From positions 248,001-312,000 of the forward strand of contig NZ_PJCF01000001.1 in NCBI RefSeq assembly GCF_002835935.1: DNA of 64,000 nucleotides, in the 5' to 3' direction. Shown here one piece after another: positions 50,685 through 56,320 of this stretch (its first letter is position 1; the number at the start of each line of letters is the position of its first letter). Origin of the DNA: Paraglaciecola sp. MB-3u-78 (GTDB taxonomy: Bacteria > Pseudomonadota > Gammaproteobacteria > Enterobacterales > Alteromonadaceae). Position numbers and translations under genes: made by a program. The notes beneath the pieces were generated by a model. The model did not search any database, was not told the origin of the DNA, and saw only the letters and a list, made by a program, of their open reading frames with translations.

Positions 50685-50774
50685 CGAAGGCTGATTAATA
50701 AGATCCGGTGAGCGGAGACGTTCAAGTGCGGTTCTGTGAAAGCATGAGATGGCGGTTCCCTTGGGCTACTCGAC
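50685..50774 (+). mobile_element. 3' remnant of a group II intron (domains V-VI)
   Basis: The 90 bases closely match the last bases of the intact intron at 53415-55285: the end of its protein gene (GAAGGCTGA), the domain V string (CCGG...GAGCGGAGACGTTCA...CGGTTCTGTGA) and the terminal GGGCTACTCGAC. Everything upstream is missing. It ends one base into the codon after the YxDD position of the decayed reverse transcriptase that follows. Confidence 0.85.
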
Positions 50775-51410
50775 TTGTGTGCGCGTTTCAGTTTGCCAAC
50801 GATACTGAGCGATTTTACAGCTTGCTGCATAAACGGCTGAAGAAGTTAAAACTTGATACTGCGCCGAAAAGACTAGCCTGTTAAGGTTCAGTCGATTCTA
50901 TCCAAGTCGCAAGCGTCAGTTTGACTTCTTGGGTTTTGCGTTTTATTGGGGAGTTGATGTGAAAGGTAAGCCGAGATTACAGCGGCGAACTGCCAGCAAA
51001 AAGCAACACGACAGCCTAAGTGAATTATACCATTTCATTAAGGCTAAACGCTCGCAGAAGCTTGCGATTTGGCTGCCGCAATAGAAACGTAAACTGACAG
51101 GGTTTTGAAATCACTTCGGACTACCCGACAACAGCCGCAGTGTGAGAAAGCTGTAAACTATGTGCTGCATAGTCTCTACAAATGGATCAACCTGCGTAGT
51201 GGCCTTCGAAGTTACAACTGGAGTAATTTCACGAAGATGCTAGAGTATTTCCAAATACAGAGGTTAAGCGTTAGCAAAAGAGTGATCGATCTTGACTGGG
51301 TATTAAAGTGGACGTGATTTACACGGGTGAATATATAACTGAAGAGCCGGATGCGGTAATTCCGCACGTCCGGATCTGTGTGGGGTCGGCTCAGTAATAT
51401 CCCCTCTACC
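50775..51410 (+). pseudogene. Decayed group II intron with reverse transcriptase/maturase remnant
   Basis: Pieces in shifting frames match the second half of LtrA-type proteins: VCAFQFANDTERFYSLLHKR, then FYPSRKRQFDFLGFAFYWGV with KGKPRLQRRTASKKQ, then KAVNYVLHSLYKWINLRSGL with RSYNWSNFTKMLEYFQI. Stops and frameshifts separate them. After the protein part, a domain V-like hairpin (GAGCCGGATGCGGTAATTCC and GCACGTCCGGAT, from about 51343) and a tail to about 51410 mark the intron's 3' end. The front half, up to YxDD, is gone, replaced by the remnant of another intron. Confidence 0.75.
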
Positions 51411-51431
51411 ACGATTGCACGGGAGAAAAAT

Positions 51432-52645: not shown

Positions 52646-52762
52646 TCCGGACGTAGTGCACAAACATACCTTACGGAAAATTGACTGAGATAGCGGTCAG
52701 TCAGGTCGCCTGAGCATATAAGCTATTGATGTCATAAGCAGCCGTTGGGCTACACTCATACC

Positions 52763-55662
52763 ATGCTAAATACTAATGCTATTTTCAACCCAGCCTCTCT
52801 CGATAAAGCCTACGCATGGTTGTGTAAGCAGCGGGCTAATTTTCCTGCCAATGCCGATATCTGGCATCTGCGTTTTCATTGGCACACTTTACGGCAGGAA
52901 CTGCTGCAAACACTCAACAGGCAAGATTACACCTTACTGCCGCTCAGCGCGGTAACTAAGGCCGATGGTGAAAGTATTCACTTGTGGTCATCACAAGATG
53001 CGCTGGTATTAAAGATGTTAGCCATGGCCTTACCGGAGGCATTAGCATTATCCCCACTTTGTACCCATATCAAAGGCTATGGCGGATTAAAAGCTACCGT
53101 CAGTGCTCTGCAAGCAGCCCTGCCTGATTACACTTATGTCATGAAAACCGATGTGAAGGGCTACTATGAGTCCATTGACCATACGATATTGCTTAGGCAG
53201 CTTGATAAGGATATTGCTGACCCCTTTATCTGGCGCTTGTTAGTGCAATTTGTGAAACGCAGTGTTGAAAGAGGTGGTACGTTTAAGTCCATACACTGCG
53301 GTATATCCAGAGGCTGCCCCTTATCACCGGTTATCGCCGCGTATTACTTAAAGGGACTGGATGAGCAGATGGAAGGTGACTCTCGTTATTTTTATCGCCG
53401 TTATATGGATGACGGTGTGCCACGAAGGCGCAAAGAAGGACATTGTCCTTCATGCAGCTATGCTGCATAAAAGATGAGGGTTTGGCCCCTCGAAGCCGCC
53501 ATGCAGGTGGAGGCTTCAAACCACCGTAAGCTGCGTCGGTAAAGAGCCGGGGTGGTGAGCGTTACGGAAAAGGCAAGGCTCGATCTTGTCAGGTGAGTTT
53601 CAAGGAGACGAATGCAAATGAACCATTATTGAAGTGTCGAAAATGTAGGGACGAGTGTCAAAACCGAGGGGTCGTCGTTACCTCGGGATAAGTCTAGCGG
53701 AAACCTGATTATTGGCTAGGCGGCCTCCGGCATGAAGATGGCGTGAACTTGAAACAGGCTTTTATGTGGAACGTGGGAACCTGTCGCCCTGATGATAAGG
53801 GAGAAACACAAGTGGTAGCCCCATAAGTGTGAGAGTACCGATGCAGGGCACAGGGGCGGAGCGACCCGTAGTAGTGATGAAGCTTTTGTAATGAAAGTGG
53901 AGCGAAGGGGAAGCATCGATCAGCTTGAACTAAAGAAAACAACCGGAAACGGGAGGATTGGATTGAAACAAGCAAAGCCGTTTACTATTTCCAAACGACA
54001 AGTTTGGGAGGCATACAAACGGGTCAAGGCCAACAAAGGCGCTGCCGGAGTTGATCGCCAGACGATCGAAAAGTTTAATGGGGATTTGAAGAATAATCTT
54101 TATAAGCTCTGGAATCGTCTGTCGTCAGGCAGCTACTTTCCATCCGCCGTCATGCGGGTTGAAATACCCAAGGATGATGGACAGATGAGGCCTTTAGGGA
54201 TCCCTACAGTGACTGACCGCATTGCGCAGATGGTAGCCAAACAATTAATAGAGCCTGAGTTGGAACAGCATTTTCATTCAGACTCTTATGGTTACCGTCC
54301 AAAGAAATCGGCACATGATGCAGTGGGGCAAGCACGTAAGCGCTGCTGGAAAAGTGACTGGGTACTGGATCTTGATATCAAAGGCTTTTTCGATAATATC
54401 GATCATGAGCTGATGATGAGAGCAGTGCAAAAGCATGTGAAAGAAAAGTGGGTACTATTGTATATAGAGCGGTGGTTAAAAGCCCCGATTGAAATGCAAG
54501 ACGGCACACTGGAATTTCCGGAGAAAGGAACACCGCAAGGAGGCGTCGTTAGCCCCTTGTTGGCTAACCTTTTTCTCCATTATGCATTCGACCAATGGAT
54601 GGTTCGGGAATTCCCGAATGTTCCCTTTGAGCGCTATGCTGATGATGCAGTTTGCCATTGCAAGAGCCAGTCTCAAGCGCAGCAATTGAAGCAAAAGCTG
54701 GAAGCCAGAATGAAACAAGTGGGTTTAGAGCTTCATCCTAAAAAGACGAAAGTTGTCTATTGTAAAGATGATGACAGGCGAGGGGATTATGCAGAAGTCA
54801 GTTTTGATTTTCTGGGTTATACCTTTCGCTCTCGCCGTTCAAAGAATCGGTGGGGGAAACACTTTATTAATTTCACTCCGGCAATCAGCAACAAGGCTGC
54901 AAAAGCAATCCGGCACAAATCACGTGATTGGAACTGGCCATTACGAAGCGACAAAGCACTGGAAGATCTTGCCCGAATGTTCAATCCGATCATTCAAGGT
55001 TGGATCAACTATTATGGACGTTACTACAAGTCAGCGTTATACCCGACCCTTAAATGCTTAGATCGTCGTCTCATTATGTGGGCGACGCGAAAGTATAAAC
55101 GTTTACGCAATCATCGAAGACGAGCAGCGCAATGGTTAAATCGTATTGCGCATAAGCAACCTTGGTTGTTTGCTCACTGGCGATTGTTGTACGCGAAGGC
55201 TTGATTGATAAGAGCCGGATGAGCGGAGACGTTCACGTCCGGTTCTGTGAGAGCCTGAGGGGGCAGTTCCCTCGGGCTACTCGACTGATCATATTAGCCA
55301 AAACCCGCTGGCACTTACGCAAGGCCGTGAGAACAGTCAATCAGCACTTTAATCAATTAAAGGTAGCGCAAGCGCCGGATAAGACCTTTATTGGACGTAT
55401 TGCCAAGGGTTTCGACTTTTTGGGTTATCGATTTGGCCTGTCAGACTTAGCACTAGCAGAAAAAACGATAACTAACGCGGTAAATAAAGTACGTCAGCTT
55501 TATGAGCAAAAGCTAACGGCTCCCAAAAGAGCCGTTGCGCTTGATGACTATATTACCCGCTGGTTACGTTGGGTAAATGCGGGGATAGCTGAAAAGCCAA
55601 TTAAGATTGTTTCCGATATCGGGAATATGACAAACCCGCTAAACCCAACGATAACAATATAA
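52763..55662 (+). CDS. Group II-like reverse transcriptase gene split by a group II intron
   Basis: A reverse transcriptase of about 342 residues after removal of the intron: exon 1 is 52763-53414, exon 2 is 55286-55662. Exon 1 encodes LDKAYAWLCKQRANFP, MKTDVKGYYESIDH (motif A), GISRGCPLSPVIAAYYL and RRYMDD; exon 2 continues V-IILAKTRWHLRKAV, DKTFIGRIAKGFDFLGYRFG and the helical end YITRWLRWVNAGIAEKPI. The join restores the frame exactly, inside the codon after YMDD. The first-exon frame also opens at 52745. The last codons are antisense to the PEP-CTERM gene, so the original C-terminus may be lost. Such stand-alone enzymes are widespread in gammaproteobacteria; the job of this one is unknown. 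Confidence 0.75.
53673..53679 (+). promoter_or_regulatory. EBS1 candidate of the group II intron
   Basis: CGTCGTT in a loop closed by GAGG/CCTC. Its antiparallel partner is GATGACG, the last seven bases of exon 1, which encode the two catalytic Asp residues (GAT GAC) and the first base of the next codon. All seven positions pair when G-U is allowed. Confidence 0.65.
53891..55204 (+). CDS. ltrA: Group II intron reverse transcriptase/maturase
   Basis: The intron-encoded protein, 437 residues. The reverse transcriptase domain runs from about 30 to 300 and includes DLDIKGFFDNIDHELM, GTPQGGVVSPLLANLFLHYA and the catalytic RYADDAVCHC (YADD at 249-252). The maturase (GIIM) domain lies at about 340-410 (LEDLARMFNPIIQGWINYYG). 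It ends soon after, with no HNH endonuclease domain, so insertion would depend on replication forks or single-stranded DNA. It acts on its own intron RNA, helping splicing and reverse-splicing it into DNA. Confidence 0.96.
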   Translation: MKVERRGSIDQLELKKTTGNGRIGLKQAKPFTISKRQVWEAYKRVKANKGAAGVDRQTIEKFNGDLKNNLYKLWNRLSSGSYFPSAVMRVEIPKDDGQMRPLGIPTVTDRIAQMVAKQLIEPELEQHFHSDSYGYRPKKSAHDAVGQARKRCWKSDWVLDLDIKGFFDNIDHELMMRAVQKHVKEKWVLLYIERWLKAPIEMQDGTLEFPEKGTPQGGVVSPLLANLFLHYAFDQWMVREFPNVPFERYADDAVCHCKSQSQAQQLKQKLEARMKQVGLELHPKKTKVVYCKDDDRRGDYAEVSFDFLGYTFRSRRSKNRWGKHFINFTPAISNKAAKAIRHKSRDWNWPLRSDKALEDLARMFNPIIQGWINYYGRYYKSALYPTLKCLDRRLIMWATRKYKRLRNHRRRAAQWLNRIAHKQPWLFAHWRLLYAKA

Positions 55663-56320
55663 CAGTGCTGGGCGACGGGACCTGAACTGCGACGTGAGTC
55701 GCCTGATCTGATACGCCGTAATAATTCAATGTCAATGTTTGGTAAGCCCGTGCCCAGCCTATCCAATCGTTCGTAATTGAAGGGGAGTAACCTATATTCG
55801 ATATTTTATACTTGCCTCCTAGCGAATTAAAAATATCAATGCGGCCGTGGCTCGTAGTCCCGGTGAATACTAATGTGTTATTCGCGACTCCGTTTTCGTC
55901 ATGCGCTATAGGCGCGTCCAGACTGCCGCCCCATATCTCGTGCCCAGACATCGCTATAATATCGCCGATGGTATTAAACAGTGTGACCGCATCTGTGTTA
56001 TTTAACATCCCCGTATTCGCTATCGCATCAACCGCGTCCGTGCTTGCTAATGCTGTCCACGTTAACCCTAGGCCCCCCGTGACAGTGCCGGCCTGCGCTG
56101 CATCATAAACGAAACTATTGTATACATTAATATCCTTGGATGTAGCGTCACGTGTGGTGCTCGTAACAAAGAGAACCCTGTACTGGTCGCCGTCGTTGAG
56201 GGCAGCTATCGAGTCTATTAGAGTGGCTGATGCAGTACCTGAGATACTCAGTGCACCAACGCTCAGCATCACTGCGTATCTGTACGTTGTTAAAACTATT
56301 TTTAAAAATTTAAATTTCAT
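55601..56320 (-). CDS. PEP-CTERM sorted exported protein
   Basis: 239 residues. The N-terminal signal peptide (YAVMLSVGALSISGTASA) precedes an extracellular domain. The C-terminus is a PEP-CTERM sorting signal: VPSPSTVILLSLGLAGLSYS then RYRKQS, that is, a V-P-S-P motif in place of V-P-E-P, a hydrophobic helix and basic residues. Such proteins are processed by exosortase in EPS-producing marine bacteria. The exosortase is not in this window. Its stop is inside the last codons of the converging reverse transcriptase gene, an overlap of about 60 bp. Finding it inside the island is unusual, and it may have been carried in. Confidence 0.88.
   Translation of the reverse strand: MKFKFLKIVLTTYRYAVMLSVGALSISGTASATLIDSIAALNDGDQYRVLFVTSTTRDATSKDINVYNSFVYDAAQAGTVTGGLGLTWTALASTDAVDAIANTGMLNNTDAVTLFNTIGDIIAMSGHEIWGGSLDAPIAHDENGVANNTLVFTGTTSHGRIDIFNSLGGKYKISNIGYSPSITNDWIGWARAYQTLTLNYYGVSDQATHVAVQVPSPSTVILLSLGLAGLSYSRYRKQS

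Follow-up and report, generated by a model that had tools for sequence, protein, structure and literature searches.

A group II intron in the catalytic-motif codons of a UG4-type reverse transcriptase gene of Paraglaciecola, with guide sequences that appear to match this motif

The window analysed here is a stretch of 64,000 nucleotides from Paraglaciecola sp. MB-3u-78 (positions 248,001 to 312,000 of contig NZ_PJCF01000001.1). It contains a UG4-type reverse transcriptase (RT) gene that is interrupted by a group II intron directly at the codons of its catalytic YMDD motif. The two halves of the gene, the intron and the predicted guide sequences, i.e. the exon-binding sequences (EBS) of the intron and the intron-binding sequences (IBS) of the exon, are arranged as follows (window positions):

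52763–53414, plus strand: 5' exon, UG4-type RT gene through the YMDD codons and the first base of the next codon (PADLOC RT_UG4, 290.7 bits, match ending at profile position 209 of 307)
53402–53406, plus strand: IBS2, TATAT, the Tyr codon and bases 1-2 of the Met codon, exon positions -13 to -9 (pairs with EBS2 ATGTA, one G-U)
53408–53414, plus strand: IBS1, GATGACG, the two Asp codons and one base (pairs with EBS1)
53415–55285, plus strand: group II intron, 1871 bases, GTGTG...GAC (Rfam; identical full-length copies in the same genome)
53476–53594, plus strand: conserved core of domain I, group-II-D1D4-2 (Rfam RF01999, 114 bits)
53643–53647, plus strand: EBS2, ATGTA (matched to exon positions -13 to -9 across 40 introns)
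53664–53686, plus strand: EBS1 hairpin, 6 bp (fold -9.4 kcal/mol; corresponding hairpin in relatives)
53673–53679, plus strand: EBS1, CGTCGTT, in the hairpin loop (matched to exon positions -6 to -1 across 40 introns)
53891–55204, plus strand: intron-encoded protein with RT and maturase (X) domains, 437 amino acids counted from the first ATG (Pfam/NCBIfam)
54635–54647, plus strand: the intron protein's own Tyr-Ala-Asp-Asp codons and one base, TATGCTGATGATG (mismatch to its own EBS2, C at +1)
55210–55285, plus strand: domains V and VI with the bulged branch-point A at 55279 (RF00029, 61.7 bits; fold z -6.75)
55286–55662, plus strand: 3' exon, remainder of the UG4 RT gene (PADLOC RT_UG4, 114.7 bits, from profile position 211)

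The 5' exon ends in TATATGGATGACG at 53414 and is followed by GTGTGCC from 53415, while the intron ends in GGGCTACTCGAC at 55285 and the downstream exon continues with TGATC from 55286. The GTGTG at 53415 and the GAC ending at 55285 follow the group II end rule (5' GUGYG, 3' AY), and the A at 55279, six bases ahead of the final intron base, is the sole bulged A in the folded domains V and VI. The intron splits the codon after YMDD between its first and second base, and removal of 53415–55285 leaves a single open frame in which RRYMDD is followed by VIILAKTRWHLRKAV. In agreement with this, the reading across the junction is uninterrupted and without a gap in all ten aligned UG4 pieces that cover YMDD. 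The ten loci of this comparison were obtained by a UG4 profile search, one in the same genome and nine in relatives; L314 is only 28% identical, and L312, L313 and L318 are partial. A preliminary description of the window, made from the letters alone, had placed the ends and the in-frame joining at YMDD identically, and both prove exact to the base. The intron-encoded protein lies above the cut-off for Pfam PF00078 and PF08388 and scores 451.9 bits with NCBIfam TIGR04416. By these features 53415–55285 is a complete group II intron, of the mobile kind as judged by its RT/maturase and EBS features, from which splicing and mobility are predicted. As the host at 52763–55662 is a UG4 RT gene, the window case is not a twintron, an arrangement that is found in the relative L063 described below. 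PADLOC describes the RT_UG4 profile as DRT, a label that points to a possible defence role.

EBS1 pairs with the end of the 5' exon over seven bases, two of them G-U; the stability of its hairpin is equalled by 16 of 200 shuffled sequences. For a test of both guides 41 introns were aligned, nearly all of them found blind to the target (the exception is L238), and 40 with a full exon were scored, L128 being excluded (its exon is cut) and L238 added. EBS1 scored 5.28 with its own exon and 2.88 with shuffled ones, EBS2 3.56 and 1.75, and for neither guide did any of 10,000 shuffles equal the observed value. The better-than-swapped matching holds also for the 28 introns at sites other than YADD, the form of the motif with Ala in place of Met, when these are taken alone. 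The seven-base pairing of CGTCGTT at 53673–53679 with GATGACG, as first proposed, is therefore upheld, with matching among relatives far beyond chance and EBS1 at the position assigned to it.

The guides of those relatives that are inserted at YADD follow the degeneracy of the genetic code. EBS1 reads N-GTCGTT in all 12 such introns with guides (window included; 11 distinct introns), while EBS2 is GCGTA in ten, GTGTA in L138 and ATGTA in the window. GTCGTT complements GAYGAY, and GCGTA complements TAYGC. The third bases of the Tyr codon and of both Asp codons each oppose a G, which pairs with C or T, so that both synonymous codons pair, and the fourfold-degenerate third base of the Ala codon falls on position -8, the unpaired gap between the EBS2 and EBS1 pairings. 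The first EBS1 base matches position -1 in nine of the 12 introns (A-T, T-A or C-G). Compared with its closest kin, the window intron has guides that are shifted toward its UG4 host, since ATGTA suits Tyr-Met and the initial C of EBS1 suits the G of Val. On the downstream side, the first exon base (+1) is T in all six YADD introns with a located 3' end; in a check for an EBS3-IBS3 pairing two columns, A53701 and A53735, tied for the top, each pairing in 15 of 19 introns.

In its own genome the intron is present in five copies (W, that of the window, and C3, C8a, C6 and C56), all five at the YMDD site of UG4 genes. The three full-length, uninterrupted copies W, C3 and C8a show no difference over 1871 intron bases, whereas their UG4 exons, with frames open on both sides of the intron, differ by 7-14%. 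The 5' exon of W diverges by 13.5-14% from those of C3, C8a and C6, which are 5-9.5% apart among themselves. The C6 intron is split by another element, and the C56 intron is 5'-truncated, with 97.8% identity over 555 bases. Seven UG4 sites are readable on at least one side; five are occupied, and C23 and C45b are empty, the latter in a gene copy that contains a stop codon. An eighth UG4 copy, C8:84107–84748, runs to the contig end inside the YMDD codons. Identical introns within diverged exons imply at least three arrivals in already diverged paralogs, or transfer among paralogs by recombination. The latter is also suggested because C3 and C6 (L043 and L044) share 300 identical bases of 3' exon but are 9.5% apart in the 5' exon, a pattern by which the intron may serve as a recombination point between UG4 genes.

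These copies bear on two alternatives. The intron could be a dead passenger that no longer splices, in UG4 genes that are merely broken; one split and one truncated copy and the fragmentary UG4 sequences elsewhere in the genome would fit, but identical full-length copies with complete domains, an intact protein and open exons in W, C3 and C8a make this unlikely. Still less probable, in our view, is a single chance insertion into one UG4 gene, later multiplied by UG4 duplication or gene conversion, for which the catalytic motif would be incidental: the C3/C6 exons are indeed a sign of recombination, but the identical introns of W, C8a and C3 are flanked by diverged exons on both sides, and relatives in other taxa, equipped with guides that match, are found at this codon position of different RT genes.

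UG4-like sequence is found at 12 places in the genome (e.g. L041, L043, L044 and L046), and C56 holds a further tail of it. Of nine other homologous UG4 stretches that have a 5' part, seven start at the base matching window position 52737. The window gene ends within a convergent gene (55601–56320) with a weak PEP-CTERM match, and on inspection by eye other copies have similar tails. The idea that UG4 genes are integron cassettes was dropped, as the boundary sequences, inspected by eye and with no dedicated attC search, held no convincing attC. The element that splits the C6 intron is ca. 2 kb long (C6:121404–123388, L044) and is inserted in the GTPQGG motif of the intron protein; its long open reading frame (ORF), judged by eye, is similar to a serine recombinase, and a partly matching stretch of ~21 bases flanks it on both sides.

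Relatives at the RT catalytic motif were obtained in several ways. A target-blind pattern for the 5' part of the intron matched 41 stretches of viral contigs and at least 118 of genome contigs. Among the matches listed, 159 pattern places included 35 backed by a related protein, six of which lie directly after YADD (once HADD), in the same phase as in the window. Eight plasmid relatives were picked by hand from 40 listed rows with their annotations in view, a non-random sample, and three of them lie at YADD. The loci from these sources are:

L083, viral contig: YADD-type site; only 46 residues of 5' exon
L134, Paenibacillus pectinilyticus: YADD-type site; pattern scan
L138, Nitrosomonas metagenome-assembled genome (MAG): YADD-type site; protein 88.5% identical over 209 residues, 5' exon of only 20 residues
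L181, Bradyrhizobium frederickii: YADD-type site; only 46 residues of 5' exon
L188, Ectothiorhodospiraceae MAG: YADD-type site; pattern scan
L213: YADD-type site; intron start only, then other sequence; protein match weak (32%), EBS region absent
L063, Bradyrhizobium elkanii plasmid: YADD site; plasmid relative
L065, Vibrio parahaemolyticus pVPH2: YADD site; plasmid relative
L066, Sinorhizobium meliloti: YADD site; plasmid relative

A protein search of viral contigs added L233 and L234, which have identical intron proteins and both lie at YADD. L238, with 87% identity to the first 368 bases of the intron before its contig ends, was gained from a pattern biased toward the Asp-Asp codons; scanned in 369 genomes of the class, this pattern matched in six besides the window's own, four of them without similarity to the intron, and only L238 and a further locus, L239, were of the same kind. 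When viral contigs were scanned for the guides alone, 54 places matched, and the three with an intron protein behind them all lie at YADD or HADD, on contigs already in the set; the guide pattern matched six of 398 genomes of the phylum besides the own one, none of them similar to the intron or its protein. In total, 12 loci with 11 distinct introns were found outside the window's genome, in Pseudomonadota, Bacillota and viral contigs, and in all 12 the intron sits at the same position of YADD (HADD once), between the first and second base of the codon next to DD.

The interrupted genes were assigned from the 5' exons of ten of the 12 loci (L234 is a copy of L233, and L138 has only 20 residues). 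The NCBIfam group II RT profile is the best match for nine of the ten, and two exceed its 300-bit cut-off although only half of the protein is present. For L233 the best match is a retron-type RT (St85 type, 110.9 bits, cut-off 235), with PADLOC giving RT-Protease_XI. The match to the group II RT profile stops at position 215, the end of YADD, in all ten. Judged by these profiles, three broad kinds of RT are invaded: UG4, group II RTs and a retron-like RT. The host RT of L063 belongs to a relative of the intron (67% over 237 residues), which itself lies inside other coding sequence. This locus is thus a nest of three, in which the intron occupies the YADD of its relative and the relative interrupts another reading frame, the outermost frame being presumably a transposase. 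With five UG4 copies and 12 loci in group II or retron-like RTs, the earlier proposal that the intron recognises the catalytic motif of RTs from unrelated retroelements is supported.

A tree of 40 intron proteins, which 28 of the 35 protein-backed introns entered (at least 200 aligned residues), places the YADD label on 11 rows with five changes, compared with a mean of 9.8 for shuffled labels (none of 500 as low). All 11 are among the 21 rows of a part with support 80/93, and none among the 19 rows outside. The preliminary description had named a majority of relatives at unrelated sites as grounds for refutation; such a majority exists in the broad family (29/40) but not in the intron's own part of the tree, where 11/21 are at YADD. 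YADD targeting was either ancestral in the 21-row part, with several losses, or arose more than once. A single old insertion into one RT gene, passed on horizontally together with that gene and not renewed by homing, would agree with the confinement of all 11 rows to this part. We consider it highly improbable, since the genes that are hit are of different kinds, namely UG4, group II and retron-like RTs, and the host of L063 is a relative of the intron inside other sequence.

Other recurrent sites occur in the wider set. The rhizobial relatives L061, L062 and L064 are inserted after ...WHLDE codons; the exon that follows L062 matches PF13610, a DDE domain of transposases, and the 60 upstream residues match nothing. 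Another target recurs in Pseudomonadaceae and Zoogloea, where four members of the wider family (L117, L163, L170 and L232) follow the common peptide QTKKG-N/K-Q-Y/W; L185 and L212 follow QTRKGKQW.

Specificity within the genome was evaluated by scripted scoring of YxDD-type motifs with RT-like context (own-genome loci L011–L051) against the window guides, i.e. six UG4 sites and six other motifs including the intron's own. Pairing is complete at the occupied sites W, C3 and C6; the occupied C8a has two mismatches, and the empty C23 has a mismatch at -1. All six non-UG4 motifs mismatch at an EBS2 position that separates Ala from Met, because ATGTA fits Tyr-Met and not Tyr-Ala. The window copy therefore has a narrower target range than its kin. 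Self-insertion, which the preliminary description took to be possibly weakened by an extra G-U pair, would be impeded more strongly, as the intron's own motif TATGCTGATGATG combines the EBS2 mismatch with C instead of T at +1.

In YADD-targeting relatives, the intron's own motif is mismatched at -1 in all eight rows (7 distinct). This mismatch was rejected as a sufficient barrier against self-insertion, because three real targets (L063, L065 and L181) carry it too. The own Asp-Asp codons are GATGAT in all nine rows (8 distinct, window included) versus 7/22 at other sites (Fisher P 0.0008), and the bias has a P of 6e-5 when calculated from the introns' own codon usage, with both P values ignoring kinship. 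As GATGAT occurs also in the non-YADD rows L061, L062 and L064 and is the real target of L138, we take the bias as a lead.

A second, decayed case lies upstream in the window:

50685–50774, plus strand: decayed 3' end of another intron related to the first (87% identity with the final 92 bases of the latter)
50775–50881, plus strand: RT sequence just past the YADD site entered by the second intron, xVCAFQFANDTERFY... (resembles FVCAFQYSRDAERFY)
51342–51415, plus strand: domain V-VI (RF00029, 40.6 bits, gathering score 40)

The sequence FVCAFQYSRDAERFY follows RYADD in the RT at C2:258646 (locus L025) of the same genome. The domain V-VI at 51342–51415 probably belongs to the outer group II intron of the 50685 remnant. 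The region of the remnant carries stops, and the whole has the arrangement of a decayed twintron. This second case (50685–50774) goes beyond the preliminary description, as do EBS2, the further genomic copies and the YADD-site relatives.

Taken together, we regard it as very probable that the intron in the window is mobile and belongs to a group II lineage in which the exon-binding sequences complement the codons for the catalytic motif of RTs. The intron RNA and its protein would reverse-splice into this motif in the RT genes of other retroelements, the inserted intron would be copied by its own RT, and splicing from the mRNA would allow the interrupted RT still to be made. In this genome ATGTA as EBS2 and C as the initial base of EBS1 suit the YMDD-Val codons of UG4, the intron is present in at least three diverged UG4 paralogs, and the poor match of its own RT motif would spare the intron itself. 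A more far-reaching version, to which we give even chances, is that the guide reads a protein motif, with G at the twofold wobble positions and a gap at the fourfold one, so that the catalytic YADD of any RT family and codon usage could be attacked; the own RT would be shielded by recoding to GATGAT and by the base after DD, and UG4 specificity would have been gained by the EBS2 steps GCGTA, GTGTA and ATGTA.

Several observations weigh against this interpretation. Pairing without a mismatch is seen at EBS1 in 32 of the 40 introns and at EBS2 in only 19. Within the YADD set alone, own and swapped pairings do not differ significantly (529 and 824 of 10,000 shuffles), as expected from near-identical targets. 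Position -1 is mismatched in three of the 12 rows (L063, L065 and L181), position -13 in L083, and positions -12 and -1 in the occupied own-genome copy C8a, while the empty C45b pairs with the window guides without mismatch and yet is unoccupied. L239 (G489:C90), which was not counted, is a decayed 5' piece that follows RFVDD codons in a stop-containing frame; it has 76% identity over 371 bases, no protein was found, and it combines EBS2 GCGTA with AGTGGTT in place of AGTCGTT. It is possibly a dead insertion in an RT motif. The five changes of the site label mean that the YADD rows are not one clean clade. Finally, UG4 targeting is known from one genome; in 294 other genomes, with two candidates scored in each, five partial and more distant matches and no full-length near copy were found.

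Full-text searches of a body of literature that lacks most subscription papers turned up no account of group II introns directed at the catalytic motif of RTs. The element is of a known kind, and its codon-aware choice of target is apparently unreported. Inteins occupy catalytic motifs of essential enzymes and likewise have conserved active-site codons as a durable target, but they rely on protein splicing and a DNA endonuclease, without RNA guides. Ll.LtrB targets a conserved stretch of the relaxase gene family, similar in that a gene family is addressed through a conserved stretch and different in that the relaxase is not an RT, which makes avoidance of its own gene moot. RmInt1 lives in insertion sequences, and thus also in other mobile elements, although its target is an insertion sequence and here it is an RT motif. 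RmInt1 and its Sinorhizobium relatives are, like the window intron, group II introns with an RT and maturase protein (PMC5894124), and Ll.LtrB sits in a relaxase gene (PMC6003770). The nearest cases found are twintrons at conserved sites of other introns. In Thermosynechococcus elongatus, TeI3 inner introns lie in TeI4 introns, and as in the window case the inner introns are identical and the outer sequences diverged; their site lies between the first and the second ATG of the ORF in a single intron family, whereas here it is the catalytic YxDD of different RT kinds (PMC2882425). Similarly, c-Ha.de.I1 is a group II intron that uses a specific position in other intron copies, but its hosts are copies of the same intron, and the RT catalytic motif is not named in the available part of the paper (PMC3522654).

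The finding bears on how group II introns, from which spliceosomal introns and many retroelements are presumed to descend, pick durable targets. As the target is the one motif that no retroelement can lose, the intron would be able to track reverse transcriptases from phylum to phylum. The finding is also of relevance to RT-based phage defence, as the UG4 and retron-like kinds that are hit have PADLOC profiles listed with defence systems. If true, this would be a natural instance of hyperparasitism, in which one retroelement exploits others by means of a guide fitted to codon degeneracy and obeys a rule of self-avoidance.

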